NCBI GenBank assembly: GCA_944383855.1
Contig: CALWRB010000017.1
Coordinates: 1 to 64,000, forward strand
Origin: an uncultured Lachnospiraceae bacterium
GTDB lineage: Bacteria > Bacillota > Clostridia > Lachnospirales > Anaerotignaceae
Direction of reading: 5' to 3'
DNA: 64,000 nt
Of this stretch, positions 14,745 through 23,512 are shown in pieces; the stretch's first letter is position 1, and every line of letters starts with the position of its first letter. The notes below the pieces were generated by a model, which made no database searches, was not told the DNA's origin, and was given only the letters and a program-made list of their open reading frames with translations. Both the position numbers and the translations under genes were made by a program.

Positions 14745-16019
14745 TTAATACATGACGATATATTCATCTCTTGCGGCGCCGACAGAAACATATTTGATGC
14801 GGCAGCCAACTGCTTTTTCAATGTAACGAATGTAATCCAGTGCTTCCTTGGGCAGATCCTCTACTTTGCGGCAGGCGGAAATGTCACACTGCCAGCCGGG
14901 CAGTGTTTCGATCACGGGAGTTGCACGGTTTAATTTCGCGGAATACGGGAACAGTTCTGTCTCTGCTCCGTCCAGGGCATAGCGCACGCAGACAGGGATC
15001 TCCTTCATATAAGAAAGTACGTCCAGCTTGGTCAGCGCGATCTCATCGCAGCCCTGCACCAGGATACCGTAACGGGAAGCGGGCACGTCAAAGGGACCGA
15101 CCCTTCTGGGGCGTCCGGTTGCGGCACCGTATTCTCCGCCGGCAGCACGCAGCTGTTCCGCTTCTTCGCCGAACCATTCCGCGGTGAAAGGACCTTCTCC
15201 CACACAGGTGGAGTAAGCCTTCATGATGCCGACGACGCGGTCCAGTTTCAAATTGGGTACGCCTGCGCCGATGGGGGCATAGGCAGCAATGGTGGAAGAA
15301 GAAGAAGTGAAGGGATAGATACCGAAGTCGATATCACGCAAAGCACCCAACTGTGCTTCAAACATCACGCGTTTGCCGTTTTTGACTGCTTCGTTCAGAT
15401 ACTGTGTGGTGTCGCAGATGTAATCCTTGAATTCTTCTGTGTATTTGTCTAGCCACTGCATCATGTCTTCTTCTTTGACGGGTTCTTTGCCGTAAACGCC
15501 GGAAATCGTCAGATTTTTATATTGCAGGATATGGGAGAACGTATGATGGCAGTATTCTTTTTCCAGCAGATCGCCCATACGAATGCATTTTTTCATATAT
15601 TTATCGCCGTAAACGGGGGAAATGCCTCTGCGGGTGGAACCGTAAGCTTCCCCTGCCAAACGCTCTTCTTCCAATACGTCTAACAGACGGTGATAAGGGA
15701 AGCAAACGATGGCTTTGTCACTGATTTTCAGGTTTTCGGGGGAGATTTTTACGCCGGCGGCACGCAGTCTGCCGATCTCTCCGCTTAAATGCTCCAGATC
15801 GATCACCATGCCGTTGCCCATGACATTGACCACATCTTCGCGCAAAATGCCGGAAGGCAGAAGGTTTAGGATAAATTTGCCCAGATCGTTGATCACGGTG
15901 TGTCCCGCGTTGTTGCCGCCCTGGTAACGGCAAACAATGTCATAGTCGGCGGAAAGCAGGTCTACCATTCTGCCCTTTCCTTCGTCGCCCCAGTTGATGC
16001 CTACGATAGATGTCAGCAT
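14745..16019 (-). CDS. purA: Adenylosuccinate synthetase
   Basis: This 424-residue enzyme joins IMP and aspartate, using GTP, to give adenylosuccinate in AMP synthesis. It has NWGDEGKGR with the catalytic Asp (D12) and GGNNAGHT with the catalytic His (H40). The IMP-binding stretch is divergent: FEAQLGALRDIDFGIYPF replaces the usual EGAQG...LDID-GTYPF, and SSSSTIAAYAP replaces TSSN-TAGG. ATGRPRRVG near residue 300 is intact. The presence of D12 argues against the phage PurZ relatives. It is a single gene with a perfect promoter and an attenuator-like leader. Confidence 0.93.
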   Translation of the reverse strand: MLTSIVGINWGDEGKGRMVDLLSADYDIVCRYQGGNNAGHTVINDLGKFILNLLPSGILREDVVNVMGNGMVIDLEHLSGEIGRLRAAGVKISPENLKISDKAIVCFPYHRLLDVLEEERLAGEAYGSTRRGISPVYGDKYMKKCIRMGDLLEKEYCHHTFSHILQYKNLTISGVYGKEPVKEEDMMQWLDKYTEEFKDYICDTTQYLNEAVKNGKRVMFEAQLGALRDIDFGIYPFTSSSSTIAAYAPIGAGVPNLKLDRVVGIMKAYSTCVGEGPFTAEWFGEEAEQLRAAGGEYGAATGRPRRVGPFDVPASRYGILVQGCDEIALTKLDVLSYMKEIPVCVRYALDGAETELFPYSAKLNRATPVIETLPGWQCDISACRKVEDLPKEALDYIRYIEKAVGCRIKYVSVGAARDEYIVMY

Positions 16020-16047
16020 AAAAATATCACTCCTTTATCAGATGCAT

Positions 16048-16085
16048 GAAAAATAAGAAAAGCCCCTTTGTAAAAACAAAGGAGC
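16048..16085 (-). promoter_or_regulatory. Terminator-like hairpin in the purA leader
   Basis: On the minus strand GCTCCTTTGT and ACAAAGGGGC (one mismatch) flank a TTTT loop, followed by TTTTCTTATTTTT. It lies between the purA promoter and its ribosome site. The first transcribed bases, GTAAAAACA (plus 16107-16115), are complementary to TGTTTTTAC inside this hairpin, so two alternative folds are possible. Confidence 0.5.
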
Positions 16086-16121
16086 GGGTACACTGCTTGA
16101 TGTTGGTGTTTTTACTTTGAA

Positions 16122-16150
16122 ATTATAGCCGAGAAGCGGCGTTCTGTCAA
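16122..16150 (-). promoter_or_regulatory. Consensus promoter for purA
   Basis: TTGACA (16145-16150) and TATAAT (16122-16127) with exactly 17 bp between, both perfect consensus. The leader to the purA start is about 95 nt. Confidence 0.92.
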
Positions 16151-16265: not shown

Positions 16266-16294
16266 TTGAAACAAAGTTGAAAAAATGTTACAAT
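16266..16294 (+). promoter_or_regulatory. Promoter for the multidomain operon
   Basis: TTGAAA (16266-16271), 17-bp spacer ending in TGT, TACAAT (16289-16294), an extended -10. It leaves a leader of about 100 nt before the 1618-residue protein. Confidence 0.8.
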
Positions 16295-16399
16295 AACAAA
16301 AGTGTGATATGGCGCATTTAAAACAGAATAAACAAATTTTTTGAATAAGAACATCGAAAAAAACGACCGAACGGCAGAAAAAAAGAAGGGGTACTTCAT

Positions 16400-19300
16400 A
16401 TGCAGAAAAAAAAGGCGAATTTTATATATAAAGAGCTGCAGGAACGTCTGCTGCGAAAAGATTTCCTCAGAAAATCGGGGTTGAGCAAAAAACGTGCGGC
16501 GTCACTGCTGCAGCGTCAGGAGCATCTGAAAGGGATCGAGGAGATCTTACAGGCGCCGCAGGTCAGCTGTAAGCAGGTGGCGGCTTTGTTTGCGCCGGTG
16601 ATGGTGTCCTTGGCGGGGGAAACGCCGAAGGAAGGGTGGCTATTGTATATTTATGAAACTTTGCGTAAGCATATGTATCCGCAGAGTGTGGAAAGCATGC
16701 CGCAGCCGAAATTCCAGAGTGCGATGCTGTTTTATCTGGAAACGCTCAGGCTTTTTCTGGAGCAGGAAAAAGAAAGCGCGCCGTTTTGCCGTACGCGTGA
16801 TTTTTGTTTCGCCACGGCAGAGGAAGTGGCAGGCAGCCCCTATGAAGAAGACTACCGCCGGTTTATGGAGTGCGTCAAAGCAGAATATATTTACGAACTG
16901 ATGCGAATTGGCAGGGAGATCATGCCCTTTGATCTTTTGGCGCATGTGGCAGGGGTACATATGGTCGCGATGCATGCCGCAAGACAGATGGCGGCTGCAG
17001 GAGAGCCGGTCGATCTGGCGCTGATCAGTGCGGCGGCGGTGGGGCATGATTTCGGAAAGCTTGGCTGCAAGATCTATGAGATCAAGCGTATGCCATATCT
17101 GCATTATTACTATACCGATCACTGGTTTACGGCACACCGCCTGACCAATATCGGTATGATCGCGGCGAACCATTCGACTTGGGATCTGGAGCTGGAAAAC
17201 CTGCCGGTAGAGTCGCTGTTATTGATCTATGCGGATTTCCGCGTGAAAACGGCAGGGCATGAAAACGGCAAGGAAATCATGGGATTTTACAGCTTAGCGG
17301 ATTCCTTCCGTGTGATACTGGACAAGTTGGATAATGTGGATCAGGCGAAGGAAAACCGCTACCGCCATGTGTATTCCAGACTGGTGGATTTTGAAAACTA
17401 TATGATCTCTTTGGGTGTGAATGTGGATCTGACGGAAGAAACGCTGCGCCCCACAGAGAAAAAAGACGTGGCACTTTTGACCATGGCAGAAACGGTAGAA
17501 GCGATCAAAGAGATCTCCATCGGACACAATATCGAACTGATGTATCGTTTGAGCCGTGAAACTTCATTCGGTAATATCCTGGAAACGGCAAGAAGCTCCA
17601 AAAACTGGAAAAATTCCAGAGCGTATATCGATATTTTCGGAGAGTATTTTACTTATATGAACCAGAAACAAAAACAGATGACGCTGAATTTTCTGTATGA
17701 GCTGATGGTGCATCGGGAAGGCGATATCCGCAGGCAGGCAGCCGATCTGATGGGAAATATCATCGCGACGTACGATGTGGAATATACCAAGGAACTGCCC
17801 GACGGCGCCTCTTGGGGACCGACGGAAACGGACAGCGCCGCGCTTTGGAAGAAATATCTGGAAATGATCGTAAACCCCGGGCATAAGATCATGCCGCGCC
17901 ACCGCAGATGGCTGGGATACTCTTTGCGCAGGGTGATCCAGTCTTTATTGCGTTATGCCAAAGAGGCTTACCGCAGCCGTTATATCGAAGCGATCTTGGA
18001 CTACTACAGGCAGATGGATTATGACCAGGAAACGGCGTTTATCCTGATCGATGTAATGCCGACCCTGCCGATCGAAACACTGGAAGAAGCGCAGCAGATG
18101 ACGCTGATCGCTTTCATGCACCGCTATGCGGTACAGCTGGAAGGGTCTTTGGAAGTGCGGGCGGCGGTGTTGCTGAATCTGAAGGATTTTTCGGAGGAGA
18201 TCAGACGAAATTCCGTGCGTCAGGCGGTTTGCGCACTGGCGGAAGAAGTGCCGGTCAAGGGCGAAGTGAATTTGCAGTTTTTGCTGTATCATATCGGCAG
18301 GTTGTACGGCATTTCCGACCGTTTGCCTGCGCTGTCTTATGAGCGTATTTTCCGAGAGGAAAAAGTCATTTCCGATATTTTCTTGGAAAACTTGAAGGCG
18401 GCAACGCCGTGGAAGATCAAAATTGTGAATATCCAGCTCTTGTTTGACCGCATCGAGCGGGGGGAAGAAGTGCCGAAGCTGCATATCGCGACGCACTTTG
18501 CCAATCTCTTGAAAGTCAGCGAACAGGTCAGTGTGCGCCATTTTGCGGGAAAAACATTGGTGCGTATGGCGAAATATTTAAGTTGGGACCAAAGAAACGA
18601 AGTAGCGGTAGAGCTGTTTCGCGGTCTGGAGATCGGTGAGTTTGAGTTTTCGAAATATATTCCGCAGTATTTGGGCGAATTTATTTTGTACCTGCACCCG
18701 AAAGAGCTCAACGAGCTGTTACAGGATCTGGATAAGCTGATCGCCAGCACAAATGACCGTATCGCCAGTGTCGCGGTGGATACCTTTGGCGTCATCATGC
18801 GCCATTACAGCGGGTATTTGTCCAGATTCCCGGAAGCCATTGATTTTAACGAAGCAAGACGCAAGCTGATCTTGGGCGAAATTCTGCGGGGGCTTGCGAA
18901 TTATCAGCCGACGGTCAGACAGGAAGCGTTTTGGGTGATCGGGCATGAGCTCTTTGGCAATGCGGACTGGTCGATGGAAGAAAAAAGACGGCTGTTTGTG
19001 GCGGTCGGCAAGAAATTGATCGCGCTGGTCAGCAATAAAGAGGAAGATGAACTGGCGTTTTTACATAATACGGCGGCGCTGAATTATATTTACGGCTTTA
19101 TCGGGGATTATTTATTTCAGCATCAGCGTTTCGAGTTTGCGGAACCGCAAAAGATCGCGTTTTTCCCCGGTACCTTCGATCCGTTTTCTTTGGGGCATAA
19201 GGAGATCGCCAAGGAGATCCGCGATATGGGCTTTGCGGTATATCTGGCGTTAGATGAGTTTTCTTGGTCGAAAAAAACGCAGCCGCATATCATTCGCAGA

Positions 19301-21256
19301 CAGATTGTGAATATGAGTGTTGCCAATGAGGAAAATATCTTCCTGTTCCCGGAGGATATTCCGATCAATATCGCCAATTCCGATGATCTGGCAAAACTGC
19401 GCAAACTCTTTGACGGCAGGGAAGTCTATATGGTGGCAGGCAGTGATGTGGTCAAAAACGCATCGGCATACCGTACGGAAATGACGCCAAACTGTATCCG
19501 CACCTTTCCGCATGTACTGTTTCTGCGTGACAGCGCGCAGCAAAAACAAAACAGCCTGCCGGAAGCGGGCGGAATCGAGGCGGAAGTGATCGAGCTGAAG
19601 CTGCCAAGGCATCTGGAGGACATCAGCTCTACCCGAATCCGGGAAAATATCGACAATAACCGTGACATTTCCAGCCTGATCGACCCTGTGGCACAAAACT
19701 ATATCTATGAAAACAGCCTTTATCTGCGGGAGTCGCAGTATAAGAAGCTTCTGGAAGCGAAAGATTTCCATGTGATCTGTGATGCGCCTGTCAGCGAAGC
19801 TTTTCTTGCGCAGGTGCAAACGGCGTTTGATGCGGAAACGGCAGAGGCTTTTGTAAAGGCGGCGGCAGCGCAAGGCAGTCGGGTGACTGCGCTTTACAGC
19901 GATGCGAAAGCACAGCGACCGGAAGGCGCGATCCTGTACCGTTATTTGCCGACCGCACAGCTGTATCAGGAATTTCAGGGAATGCACGCGGCGGCGTATT
20001 TCAGGGAGAATGCTTCCGGCAAGATCATGCTGATCACTGCCTTTGGCGTGCGTGAAAAGACAGATCTGGAAGAAGTGGAGCAGATCGTTTTGGCGGAGGC
20101 TTTAGCAGCCTGCCTGGAGCAGGATTATACCTATTCCGTGTTAAGCCCCGGTATCAAGCGTTTGAGCGCGGCGCAGGAGAGTGTGCTGTATCGGCAGGGA
20201 TACCGCAAAATAGAAGGCTTGGATTGTGAAGGAACGGTATACGCGGTGGATATGAAAAATCCTGTGGTACTGTTTAAAAATATGCAGACGGTCATCAAAG
20301 AACCGCTGAACCAGAATGAAGCGGTGCTGGAAGTGTTGGAGCAAAATCACAGACGGCTGCAAAATGCCATGACAAAGCTCTATCCCGGGCAACTGGTAAT
20401 CTCCTTAGACTCCGGCATGATGTATGGCAAATTGATCGAGCGGATCACTGCGGCAAACGGCGTTCCGAAAGAGGAAGGTCCCGTCAGACAGTTGGGAAGT
20501 GCGATGTGCGTACCGTTTGGCAAGATCCTCAAAGGCATTGTGATACCCAATACAGTGACCAAAGTACTGCATACGGATAAATTATTCGAAACCGACGTGC
20601 GCAGCTTCAAGATCAAGGAATTTCCGAACTATCTGCCGTTGAAAAGTCAGGTGCGTATGATCAAATCTTTCCGCCGTCCCGTGATTTTGGTAGACGATCT
20701 GATGCATAAAGGATACCGCATCAAAGAACTGAACCCGATATTCCAAGAAGAAGGATTGCAGATCGATCGGATCATTGTGGGCGTGCTTTCGGGCAGAGGC
20801 AAAGATTTGATGGAGATCCAGGGCAGGAAGGTAGAAAGCGCGTATTTTATCCCTTCCGTGCAGGCGTGGTTTGTGGAGTCGTCCATTTACCCCTTCATCG
20901 GCGGGGACGGCATCGTGCAGCGTGTGAAAAGCAAGGATAATCTGTTCCATGCGGTCAACCTGATCTTGCCGTATGTGCTGCCGGCGTTTTTGGCACGCTG
21001 CGACACGAAGGCGGTGTACGATTTTTCCATGGTATGCCTGCAAAACGCCAAAGAACTTCTGGAAGTGCTGGAAAAGGAATATCAGCGTCTGTTCGAGCGG
21101 ACGCTGACGTTAAACCGACTCAGTGAAGTGATCATTTCGCCGACCTGCCCCGATAAAGGCAGCTGCATCAGCTATGATCACCACTTGCCGGCTTCTGTGT
21201 ATGTGGAAAACGATATGGAAAAACTGGTGCGCTTGCGGAATCTTGCGCAAAAATGA
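16400..21256 (+). CDS. 1618-residue HD / repeat / nucleotidyltransferase / PRTase-like protein
   Basis: An N-terminal HD phosphohydrolase-like domain has all expected ligands: H182, H216-D217, H258 and D279. Residues about 370-900 are helical, with HEAT-like character. Residues about 918-1110 form a NadD-like nucleotidyltransferase: GTFDPFSLGHKE at 924 is the (H/T)xGH box, and SSTRIRE near 1075 matches the ISSTxIR motif. About 1110-1300 is an unassigned alpha/beta region, possibly GNAT-like. About 1310-1530 looks like a phosphoribosyltransferase, with VILVDDLMHKGYR near 1427 as the PRPP loop. It likely acts on a nucleotide or nicotinamide-type cofactor. The ATG follows GAAGGGG. It heads a three-gene operon. 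No experimental function is known to me. Confidence 0.88.
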   Translation: MQKKKANFIYKELQERLLRKDFLRKSGLSKKRAASLLQRQEHLKGIEEILQAPQVSCKQVAALFAPVMVSLAGETPKEGWLLYIYETLRKHMYPQSVESMPQPKFQSAMLFYLETLRLFLEQEKESAPFCRTRDFCFATAEEVAGSPYEEDYRRFMECVKAEYIYELMRIGREIMPFDLLAHVAGVHMVAMHAARQMAAAGEPVDLALISAAAVGHDFGKLGCKIYEIKRMPYLHYYYTDHWFTAHRLTNIGMIAANHSTWDLELENLPVESLLLIYADFRVKTAGHENGKEIMGFYSLADSFRVILDKLDNVDQAKENRYRHVYSRLVDFENYMISLGVNVDLTEETLRPTEKKDVALLTMAETVEAIKEISIGHNIELMYRLSRETSFGNILETARSSKNWKNSRAYIDIFGEYFTYMNQKQKQMTLNFLYELMVHREGDIRRQAADLMGNIIATYDVEYTKELPDGASWGPTETDSAALWKKYLEMIVNPGHKIMPRHRRWLGYSLRRVIQSLLRYAKEAYRSRYIEAILDYYRQMDYDQETAFILIDVMPTLPIETLEEAQQMTLIAFMHRYAVQLEGSLEVRAAVLLNLKDFSEEIRRNSVRQAVCALAEEVPVKGEVNLQFLLYHIGRLYGISDRLPALSYERIFREEKVISDIFLENLKAATPWKIKIVNIQLLFDRIERGEEVPKLHIATHFANLLKVSEQVSVRHFAGKTLVRMAKYLSWDQRNEVAVELFRGLEIGEFEFSKYIPQYLGEFILYLHPKELNELLQDLDKLIASTNDRIASVAVDTFGVIMRHYSGYLSRFPEAIDFNEARRKLILGEILRGLANYQPTVRQEAFWVIGHELFGNADWSMEEKRRLFVAVGKKLIALVSNKEEDELAFLHNTAALNYIYGFIGDYLFQHQRFEFAEPQKIAFFPGTFDPFSLGHKEIAKEIRDMGFAVYLALDEFSWSKKTQPHIIRRQIVNMSVANEENIFLFPEDIPINIANSDDLAKLRKLFDGREVYMVAGSDVVKNASAYRTEMTPNCIRTFPHVLFLRDSAQQKQNSLPEAGGIEAEVIELKLPRHLEDISSTRIRENIDNNRDISSLIDPVAQNYIYENSLYLRESQYKKLLEAKDFHVICDAPVSEAFLAQVQTAFDAETAEAFVKAAAAQGSRVTALYSDAKAQRPEGAILYRYLPTAQLYQEFQGMHAAAYFRENASGKIMLITAFGVREKTDLEEVEQIVLAEALAACLEQDYTYSVLSPGIKRLSAAQESVLYRQGYRKIEGLDCEGTVYAVDMKNPVVLFKNMQTVIKEPLNQNEAVLEVLEQNHRRLQNAMTKLYPGQLVISLDSGMMYGKLIERITAANGVPKEEGPVRQLGSAMCVPFGKILKGIVIPNTVTKVLHTDKLFETDVRSFKIKEFPNYLPLKSQVRMIKSFRRPVILVDDLMHKGYRIKELNPIFQEEGLQIDRIIVGVLSGRGKDLMEIQGRKVESAYFIPSVQAWFVESSIYPFIGGDGIVQRVKSKDNLFHAVNLILPYVLPAFLARCDTKAVYDFSMVCLQNAKELLEVLEKEYQRLFERTLTLNRLSEVIISPTCPDKGSCISYDHHLPASVYVENDMEKLVRLRNLAQK

Positions 21257-21281
21257 TAGATACAGAGGGAAGGGAACAAAC

Positions 21282-22451
21282 GTGGATTGGTTGGAGTATA
21301 ACGGCGGCAAAGCTTTGATTCTGGAAAAAGACCCGCAGGCAAGCAAAGGCTTGTTTTACCTGACACACCGTGCGATGTGCGAAAAAGAAGGTCTGTGGTG
21401 GCTGGACGAGAATCGTCTGCTTTTGGCACAGGGCGAAGCGGAAGGTGATTTTTTCTCCTGCCCTGCCGTCAATCTTTCGTGGGGTACAAAACAGCAGTGG
21501 AAGCAGCGACTGGAGCGCTTGGCAGCAGCTGTGGGTGAGAAAAAGACGCTGCACTTGCTTGCGCTTGGCGATGTGGGCAGTACCGTACTGACGGCGCTGA
21601 AGCTGTTGGGAAGCGACTGCCTGCGGGAAATCGGGATCTACGATATGAACCCCGCTGTTTGCCAAAGATGGGAAAGCGAATTAAACCAGGCGGCTTATCC
21701 TTGGGACTATGACGCACTGCCCGAGGTGAAGATATTACAGGAGAAGGAGTTATTTGACTGTGATGTGTTCGTGTTTTGCGCTTCCAAAGGCATACCTCCT
21801 GTAGGAAGCGATGTGAAAGATGTGCGTATGGCGCAGTATGCAGCCAATCGCGGCATTGTTTCGCTGTATGCCAAAAAAGCCAGAGAAGTCGGCTTCCAGG
21901 GGCTGTTTGCCGTGGTGTCTGACCCTGTGGACCCGCTTTGTCGGGCGGCGTTTTTTGCGGCAAATACCGATGAAAACGGCTGTTTTGACGCAAAAGGACT
22001 GCGCCCCGAGCAGATACAGGGCTATGGACTTGGCGTGATGAATGCCAGAGGCGCGTATTATGCGAAAAAAGACAGCCGTTTTGCCTCTTTTTTGCAAGAA
22101 GGGCGTGCCTTTGGTCCGCATGGAGAGGATTTGGTGTTGGCAAACAGTATTGCGCACTATGACGACGCGCTTTCCAAAGAGCTGACCACACTTGCGGTGC
22201 AGGCGAATTTACGCACCAGAGAACTGGGATTTAAGCCGTATGTGGCGCCTGCGATTTCTTCCGCCGCCATTTCTTTGCTTTTGACGCTGCGCGGGCAGTG
22301 GCATTACAGCTCCAACGCGCTGGGCGGCGTTTGGATGGGCAGCAAAAACAGGACCACCGCGCAGGGTCTGCAAATCGAAAGCCTGCCGCTGCCGCAGGCA
22401 TTGTATGAAAGACTGCAACACGCTTACCAAGCTTTGGAGGCGATCGAATGA
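21282..22451 (+). CDS. Lactate/malate dehydrogenase-fold protein
   Basis: The 389-residue protein has a Rossmann motif LLALGDVGSTVLTALKLLG ending in the acidic IYDMN. It then has VVSDPVDPLC (compare SNPVD of lactate dehydrogenases), an arginine segment GVMNARGAYYAKK, and GPHGED in place of GEHGDS, keeping the catalytic His. The first 90 residues are a non-LDH extension. It is probably an NAD(P)-dependent 2-hydroxyacid oxidoreductase of unknown substrate. I chose the GTG at 21282 because AGAGGGAAGGG precedes it; an in-frame ATG at 21174 lies inside the upstream gene. It starts 25 bp after the multidomain gene and overlaps the next by 4 bp. Confidence 0.8.
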   Translation: MDWLEYNGGKALILEKDPQASKGLFYLTHRAMCEKEGLWWLDENRLLLAQGEAEGDFFSCPAVNLSWGTKQQWKQRLERLAAAVGEKKTLHLLALGDVGSTVLTALKLLGSDCLREIGIYDMNPAVCQRWESELNQAAYPWDYDALPEVKILQEKELFDCDVFVFCASKGIPPVGSDVKDVRMAQYAANRGIVSLYAKKAREVGFQGLFAVVSDPVDPLCRAAFFAANTDENGCFDAKGLRPEQIQGYGLGVMNARGAYYAKKDSRFASFLQEGRAFGPHGEDLVLANSIAHYDDALSKELTTLAVQANLRTRELGFKPYVAPAISSAAISLLLTLRGQWHYSSNALGGVWMGSKNRTTAQGLQIESLPLPQALYERLQHAYQALEAIE

Positions 22452-23512
22452 AACAAAACATCATCGTGATATGCCCATGCTGTGAGCAGGAATATAAAAC
22501 GGAACGCCTGCAAAAGGTTTTGCGGCATATGCTGGAAGGATTTTGCTGTGAATGGATCACGGAAGCGGCGGCTTTTCGTCCGCTGAGAGATCAAAAGGTA
22601 TTGTTTGCGATCTCTTTGGGCGAAAGCGGTGTGAATTTAGAGTATTATCGCCTGCTCAAACGTCTGCGGACAGAAACGGACTGTCTGGAGGGCTGTGTCG
22701 GCAGTGTGATCGTGGACGGAGAGAGCGAACTGTTTACCAAGGCTGTGGCAAGGGATATCGTATTTGCCGCAAACCGCTGCGGCTGTGCTTTTCCCGGGCG
22801 CGCGATGGTGGAAGGTACGGGTTCTTTACAGAATTTTCGGATTCAGGCGATGCGTACGCAGACGGATTACATGGGGGCTTATGTTGCGGCGGCGTGCGAT
22901 ATGATGCAGCGCCTGCGGGATTATGCGCCGATACGCAAAGAAGAACCTAAACTATTGGTGTTACACGCGGGAAGTCATCAGACAAGCAATACCCTTTCGC
23001 TGTGGGAGATGGTCAAAAGCCATCTGGACGGCTGCAAGATTCGGGAGATCTCTCTGCGAAACGGTGAGATTCAGGATTGCAGCGGCTGCCCGTACACCAT
23101 GTGTATGCACTACAGCAAAAAGGCAAGCTGTTATTACGGCGGTGTAATCGTGGAGCAGGTATATCCCGCGATTTTGGATTGTGACGCTCTGGTCATGCTC
23201 TGCCCGAACTATAATGACGCCATCAGCGCGAATTTATCGGCATTTGTCAATCGCTTGACTTCGCTGTTCCGTCAGACGGCGTTTTATGATAAAACACTGT
23301 TTGGTATCGTAGTTTCCGGCTACAGCGGCGGGGATCTGGTGGCAGGGCAGCTGATCAGCGGGCTGCATATGAATAAAACATTTCGCCTGCCGCCGCATTT
23401 TGCGATGCTGGAAACGGCAAATGACCCCGGCAGTATCTATCAGGTGGAAGGCATTGCACAAAGAGCTGCCGCTTTTGCGGAACAGATTCTGGTACAAATC
23501 CGAAAGGATTAA
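22448..23512 (+). CDS. NADPH-dependent FMN reductase-like flavoprotein
   Basis: In this 354-residue protein the second half (from about residue 158) is a flavodoxin-like NADPH:FMN reductase domain, with LLVLHAGSHQTSNT as the phosphate loop and VMLCPNYNDAISANL as the flavin loop. A cysteine cluster, CSGCPYTMC, follows the style of iron-sulfur flavoproteins. The first 150 residues form a separate alpha/beta domain with a CPCCEQEY start that I cannot assign. Its start overlaps the preceding stop in an ATGA, indicating translational coupling, so it very likely works with the two upstream products. Confidence 0.8.
   Translation: MKQNIIVICPCCEQEYKTERLQKVLRHMLEGFCCEWITEAAAFRPLRDQKVLFAISLGESGVNLEYYRLLKRLRTETDCLEGCVGSVIVDGESELFTKAVARDIVFAANRCGCAFPGRAMVEGTGSLQNFRIQAMRTQTDYMGAYVAAACDMMQRLRDYAPIRKEEPKLLVLHAGSHQTSNTLSLWEMVKSHLDGCKIREISLRNGEIQDCSGCPYTMCMHYSKKASCYYGGVIVEQVYPAILDCDALVMLCPNYNDAISANLSAFVNRLTSLFRQTAFYDKTLFGIVVSGYSGGDLVAGQLISGLHMNKTFRLPPHFAMLETANDPGSIYQVEGIAQRAAAFAEQILVQIRKD

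Follow-up and report, generated by a model that had tools for sequence, protein, structure and literature searches.

A widespread clostridial operon encoding a 1618-residue HD/HEAT/NadD-like protein, an LDH-fold dehydrogenase and, frequently, a flavoprotein

Which reaction might be performed by a single bacterial protein that unites hydrolase-like, nucleotidyltransferase-like and phosphoribosyltransferase-like segments and is encoded directly in front of two redox enzymes? This question is raised by three genes on the forward strand of a 64,000-nucleotide stretch of DNA (in the following, the window), originating from an uncultured bacterium that is represented by a 2.0-Mb draft genome of 59 contigs and has Anaerotignum as its closest named relatives. 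Gene 1 (positions 16,400 to 21,256) encodes a 1618-aa multidomain protein featuring HD, HEAT, nucleotidyltransferase (NTase), GNAT-like, and phosphoribosyltransferase (PRTase)-like domains, gene 2 (21,282 to 22,451) a 389-aa dehydrogenase of the LDH/MDH superfamily with an altered active site, and gene 3 (22,448 to 23,512) a 354-aa flavoprotein composed of an N-terminal domain of unknown fold and an FMN_red domain. An earlier note, prepared from the letters of the window, had described three tightly packed genes, and all three open reading frames, the gap of 25 bp, the ATGA overlap joining the stop of gene 2 to the start of gene 3, and the quoted motifs were recovered; the 25-bp gap between genes 1 and 2 results from the GTG at 21,282 as the start of gene 2. 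The three frames are real genes and not chance products, since 77, 76, and 64 distinct homologues with conserved motifs were found for genes 1, 2, and 3, respectively.

A sigma-A-like sequence (TTGAAA-17-TACAAT, 10 of 12 matches, TG before the -10 element) is located in front of gene 1 on the forward strand (16,266 to 16,294). The promoter element noted previously is thus present, but shuffled sequence yields at least as many such matches (6 found in the region compared to 7.1 expected), and it is regarded as a plausible operon promoter. Riboswitches that might hint at the substrate were sought in front of the operon and were found neither in the window nor at most loci. An FMN riboswitch followed by a RibU-like riboflavin transporter gene lies directly upstream of the operon, which includes the flavoprotein gene 3, at two loci only (L059:5073-5191 and L060:1867-1986). 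On the reverse strand of the window, purA (14,745 to 16,019) features a perfect TTGACA-17-TATAAT promoter (region 16,019 to 16,150) and, between promoter and start codon, a terminator-like hairpin (16,085 to 16,062), possibly representing an attenuator leader; this hairpin showed no Rfam match and its folding energy was not significant (z −1.1).

The predicted HD phosphohydrolase domain of gene 1 comprises approximately residues 150 to 345 (16,847 to 17,434, forward strand). Profile PF01966 matched 23 of 24 gene 1 homologues (best E 1e-7), the protein of the window itself reaching only E 0.15. The metal ligands H182, H216, D217, H235, H258, and D279 are identical in all 77 distinct homologues, and the same applies to K220. 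The ligand set had been proposed to be complete with H182, H216-D217, H258, and D279; these residues are present, but the invariant sixth ligand, H235, had been missed. Profile match and metal ligands together place the domain, at the level of sequence, in the HD phosphohydrolase superfamily. Its alignment with YqeK (COG1713) is weak and confined to the region of the HD motif (hhalign, 15 percent, E=0.0017). The long helical repeat region reported downstream of it could be specified as HEAT repeats (residues 421 to 905; 17,660 to 19,114, forward strand), PF02985 being detected in 17 of 20 homologues and exceeding its cut-off in the window when this segment was scanned separately (E=3.4e-6).

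The NTase domain of the NadD/NMNAT type follows at residues 915 to 1112 (19,142 to 19,735, forward strand) and contains FPGTFDPFSLGHKE and SSTRIRE. Its previous designation as a nucleotidyltransferase was confirmed: PF01467, representing the cytidylyltransferase-like NTase superfamily, scored above the Pfam gathering cut-off (29.3 bits compared to 21), SSTRIRE is present, and the catalytic residues are conserved. H933, D927-P928-F929, W956, and R966 were found in 77 of 77 homologues, and SSxxIR, equivalent to the SSTxIR motif of NadD, in 76 of 77. The homologues were also checked for a loss of catalytic residues, which the earlier note had named as a point against its proposal; the HD ligands (77/77) and NTase motifs (76/77) are not lost. 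NadD profiles matched the domain with E values down to 4e-11, yet far below every equivalog cut-off (42.7 bits compared to 150 for NF000840, and 41.2 compared to 112.45 for TIGR00482). The best PDB matches of the segment are NadD structures, and the alignment with the NadD of the host genome is near full-length (hhalign, E=1.7e-5). As deduced from these profile and motif comparisons, the domain is a true relative of NadD/NMNAT. Its nucleotide-binding motif is always (S/T)xxH and not HxGH, the first His being replaced by Ser (62) or Thr (15) and the last His being retained in all 77 homologues, and the position matching the NadD Trp is always Tyr. A change of the first His in HxGH also occurs in active eukaryotic NMNATs. 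The housekeeping NadD of the host is a 424-aa NadD-YqeK fusion encoded elsewhere in the genome (G000 C3:13818-14966; L100, L159). Gene 1 as the housekeeping NadD was therefore rejected, the operon does not serve housekeeping NAD synthesis, and its NTase probably uses an acceptor other than the NaMN of general NAD synthesis.

Flanked by the NTase and the PRTase-like segment, a GNAT-fold domain was recognized at approximately residues 1119 to 1284 (19,754 to 20,251, forward strand), which was overlooked in the previous domain list; the HD, NTase, LDH-fold, and flavodoxin-fold entries of that list were correct. The structure model, computed from alignments of seven close sequences, reached pLDDT values of mostly 63 to 89 here, falling briefly to 44, and all top Foldseek hits of the predicted structure are GNAT acetyltransferases (E 1e-4), so that the modeled segment is assigned the GNAT fold. 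The acetyl-CoA pyrophosphate motif Q/RxxGxG/A was not recognizable by eye in the consensus of the domain, which is the least conserved portion of gene 1. In the first structure model, confidence was low outside the GNAT part, and the NTase and PRTase parts were uninformative.

The PRTase-like domain (approximately residues 1296 to 1505; 20,285 to 20,914, forward strand) was delineated by PF00156 and hhalign. PF00156 was found in 15 of 24 homologues at E<=10 (best E 0.0012), the window protein giving no match. Hhalign placed the PRPP loops of Apt, PyrE, Xpt, Prs, Hpt, and PyrR at one and the same site of gene 1 (E 1e-4 to 2e-2), compared to values of 0.08 or worse for unrelated control profiles. 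This site is VILVDDLMHKGYR (20,681 to 20,719, forward strand), in which the first Asp is invariant (77/77), and the second position is occupied by Asp (53), Glu (2), Asn (17), or Thr (5). The two adjacent acids typical of the PRPP loop of type I PRTases are accordingly incomplete in 22 of 77 homologues, which casts doubt on catalysis in over a quarter of the family. The PRTase-like segment postulated by the earlier note is more weakly backed than the HD and NTase domains: it aligns around the loop with all PRTase families tested, but the second acid varies and structure modeling of the segment failed (pLDDT 35, uninformative); a PRTase fold of this C-terminal segment is moderately supported by the profiles. 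The segment resembles Xpt, Apt, and PyrE around the PRPP loop, and Xpt likewise lacks TGGT; in contrast to these enzymes, it has an unconserved second acid, extra C-terminal helices, and no assignable subfamily. An identification as Xpt was dropped, as Apt scored better and none of the profiles was decisive.

Gene 2 aligned with L-lactate dehydrogenase over 278 columns (hhalign, 98.5 percent, E=3.1e-15), and the motifs GDVGST, NAR, and GPHGED, on which the previous LDH-like designation was founded, are present. This alignment assigns the LDH fold to the predicted protein over its full length. L-lactate and malate dehydrogenases share with it the fold (approximately 278 columns), the NAD-binding GDVGST, and the equivalents of R109, R171, and H195, which correspond to R182, R256, and H280 and are retained in 76 of 76 homologues. 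The catalytic set D168-H195, R109, R171, and N140 of LDH is not complete, however: Asp (D214) takes the place of N140 and Met (M253) that of D168 in all 76, and most members carry approximately 80 to 110 additional N-terminal residues. Because the active site departs from LDH at two positions, the product of gene 2 may act differently from a normal 2-hydroxyacid dehydrogenase; D214 might take over the role of D168. The flavodoxin-like character of gene 3, including CSGCPYTMC, was corroborated by PF03358 (FMN_red; E=1e-17, residues 167 to 324, 64.6 bits compared to a gathering cut-off of 24). Four Cys (C211, C214, C219, and C228; 23,078 to 23,131, forward strand) are invariant in 64 of 64 homologues and represent a candidate Fe-S or redox site. 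Gene 3 resembles FMN_red/iron-sulphur flavoproteins in its flavodoxin-like domain and Cys cluster, and differs from them in the Cys spacing (CX2CX4CX8C) and in a roughly 165-residue N-terminal domain to which profile searches assigned no family.

Full-length homologues of gene 1 (32% to 61% identity) were detected across many families of Clostridia. In a class-wide draw, gene 1 was present in 25 of 291 genomes. Gene 2, searched in a draw of 391 genomes overlapping the former, was listed in 24 of these 25, the exception being G178, in which gene 1 runs off its contig. No genome with gene 2 only was seen among the genomes listed in the class-wide sample. Genes 1 and 2 thus have one common phylogenetic profile, and the co-occurrence in other genomes, suggested as a check beforehand, was found. 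In the order of G121, gene 2 was detected in 64 of 226 genomes, and gene 1 accompanied it at all 27 loci fetched there. Within the own family, the distribution is uneven, extending to 21 of 58 genomes and 5 of 17 genera. The three-gene operon proposed previously is conserved, but gene 3 is missing in ten genomes keeping genes 1 and 2, being absent from the locus and from the entire genome, so that the trio is better described as a core pair with a frequent third gene. In G304 and G662, gene 1 has neither partner beside it, genes 2 and 3 being adjacent to each other elsewhere. The gene 1 tree mostly tracks the families, with some exceptions, and the family is considered to be old and mostly vertically inherited, with losses. 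Carriers include the isolates Anaerotignum neopropionicum and Acetoanaerobium noterae; the 2.63-Mb record NZ_CP154629.1 (L093), listed as a plasmid of the latter, resembles a chromosome. Second copies of gene 1 occur at L075 and L070, with genes 2 and 3 absent at the site; the copy at L075 has an intact HD domain and degenerate NTase motifs (TDIFDPFTTVH, LSCETK). Gene 1 looks disrupted or divided among several frames or pieces in L080, L092, and L247, which may be due to assembly errors or decay. At Clostridiaceae-type loci, a PHP-domain phosphoesterase gene is located downstream on the same strand (L068, L247, L250, L253, L256, L258, L264, and others), and a DUF4883 lipoprotein gene is often found upstream of the operon.

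A tested precedent for an HD domain and NadD on a single chain is available, since the YqeK domain fused to NadD hydrolyzes NaAD and wrong-base analogues (PMC9426524). Nucleotidyl transfer and HD hydrolysis were placed at the core of the proposed mechanism because of this precedent and because the HD and NTase sites are the most strictly conserved. Gene 1 would accordingly encode a nucleotidyltransferase that carries its own HD phosphohydrolase, with the HEAT repeats as the scaffold. With ATP as the AMP donor, the NadD/NMNAT-type domain may adenylylate a mononucleotide-like acceptor, yielding a NAD-like dinucleotide, and the HD domain may cleave this product or faulty analogues, either as proofreading or as turnover, in a manner analogous to NadD-YqeK. 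Binding of small ligands (nucleotide, PRPP, acceptor) is a more probable role for the PRTase-like and GNAT-like domains than catalysis. The altered LDH-fold, NAD-dependent oxidoreductase encoded by gene 2, usually together with the flavoprotein encoded by gene 3, would perform a linked redox step. The domain folds (for the PRTase only moderately), the conserved HD and NTase residues, and the linkage and co-occurrence of the genes are established; which acceptor is used, what reaction takes place and in which direction, and how the redox partners take part are inferred, and we assign this reading as a whole a probability of approximately 40%. NadD-YqeK fusions, known from mycoplasmas and from the 424-aa protein of the host itself, likewise combine a NadD-type NTase and an HD domain on one chain. 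Compared to them, gene 1 has its HD domain at the N-terminus, is 1618 aa long, and contains HEAT, GNAT-like, and PRTase-like domains; its HxGH equivalent starts with Ser/Thr, its scores are far below the NadD cut-offs, and its partners are an LDH-like protein and a flavoprotein. It is conceivable, albeit doubtful, that the operon even represents a new pathway of strict anaerobes in which a non-canonical adenine dinucleotide or signal is made, proofread, and used with its own dehydrogenase and flavoprotein.

An unlikely alternative with some merit is that gene 1 encodes a regulator of metabolic status working like GlnD, the PII uridylyltransferase/uridylyl-removing enzyme, without being homologous to it. 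The NTase would add and the HD domain remove a nucleotidyl group, or both would make and break a small nucleotide signal, under the control of the GNAT-like and PRTase-like domains as sensors, thereby tuning ammonia, glutamate, and glutamine metabolism. GlnD has a comparable bifunctional layout of NTase, HD, and possible sensor domains. Its NTase is of the Pol beta type and is accompanied by ACT domains. Neither gave a Pfam match in gene 1, the NTase of which is of the PF01467 type. Genes for ammonia or glutamate/glutamine metabolism, recurrent among the first approximately 40 loci, adjoin the operon in about seven contexts: Amt and glutamate synthase (L059, L060), glutamate dehydrogenase (f24 loci, and L246 on a distant branch), AsnB and GlnN (Anaerotignum, L086), CarA/CarB/PyrG (L065, L083, L092), and Re-citrate synthase-aconitase-isocitrate dehydrogenase and GuaA (L084, L085). 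The same seeds matched 0 of 205 genes in 13 control regions of Clostridiaceae-type genomes, but these controls, like the held-out loci, belong to a clade other than that of most positive contexts, and the glutamate/ammonia category was picked after the data had been seen. Such a neighbor was present at only 2 of the 27 held-out loci from the order of G121 (L241, L246), approximately the expected background. As the held-out loci failed to confirm the pattern, striking as it was in the first set, the neighborhood was rejected as a main claim and kept as a rival only, and the link to glutamate/glutamine genes is suggestive only. Moreover, the known substrates of HIGH-fold NTases are small molecules rather than PII proteins, and the operon has no recognizable PII gene beside it.

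It is rather improbable that the operon is a sanitizing system, in which the HD domain would be the mainly active part and clear damaged dinucleotides or polyphosphates, while the products of genes 2 and 3 re-oxidize or repair damaged forms of NAD(P)H. The HD domain is the most strictly conserved part of the protein (77/77), the second copy at L075 retains it beside a degenerate NTase, a PHP-domain phosphoesterase gene often follows on the same strand at Clostridiaceae-type loci, and YqeK serves as a precedent here too (PMC9426524). However, conservation of the NTase in 76 of 77 homologues indicates that it is needed in nearly all of them.

Still less probable is a full pathway, in which the PRTase would convert a base and PRPP to a nucleotide, the NTase adenylylate it, the HD domain clear wrong products, and the redox enzymes use or finish a NAD-like cofactor. 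Three nucleotide domains on a single chain beside two redox enzymes fit this scheme, and xanthine PRTases, too, manage without TGGT in the PRPP loop (DDFLANG); against it stand the Asn or Thr in the loop of 22 homologues, the PRTase subfamily that could not be assigned by profile, and the poor model of this segment. The self-contained, perhaps NAD-related form of such a pathway, as put forward in the earlier note, appears doubtful in view of the canonical NadD-YqeK elsewhere in the genome and of an NTase below the NadD cut-offs with Ser/Thr for the first His of HxGH and Tyr for Trp. Anti-phage defense or a phage origin was dismissed, as no PADLOC model matched and the operon genes were found neither in phage records nor in viral contigs or genomes.

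The operon had been called undescribed, and indeed no publication on this gene combination was found in the open-licence literature searched; in the databases searched, the gene 1 family appears only as sub-threshold NadD. The superfamily of each domain and the pairing of HD with NadD are already known, and their combination here is apparently new. The gene 1 family is real and ancient, and apparently undescribed: it is spread over many Clostridia, its HD and NTase residues are almost always retained, and a single dehydrogenase gene is linked to it. If a new dinucleotide is made, it would represent a new cofactor or signal in anaerobes. Otherwise, the description still guards against the likely misannotation of gene 1 as 'NadD', and the family could readily serve to test how HD domains proofread nucleotidyltransferases.
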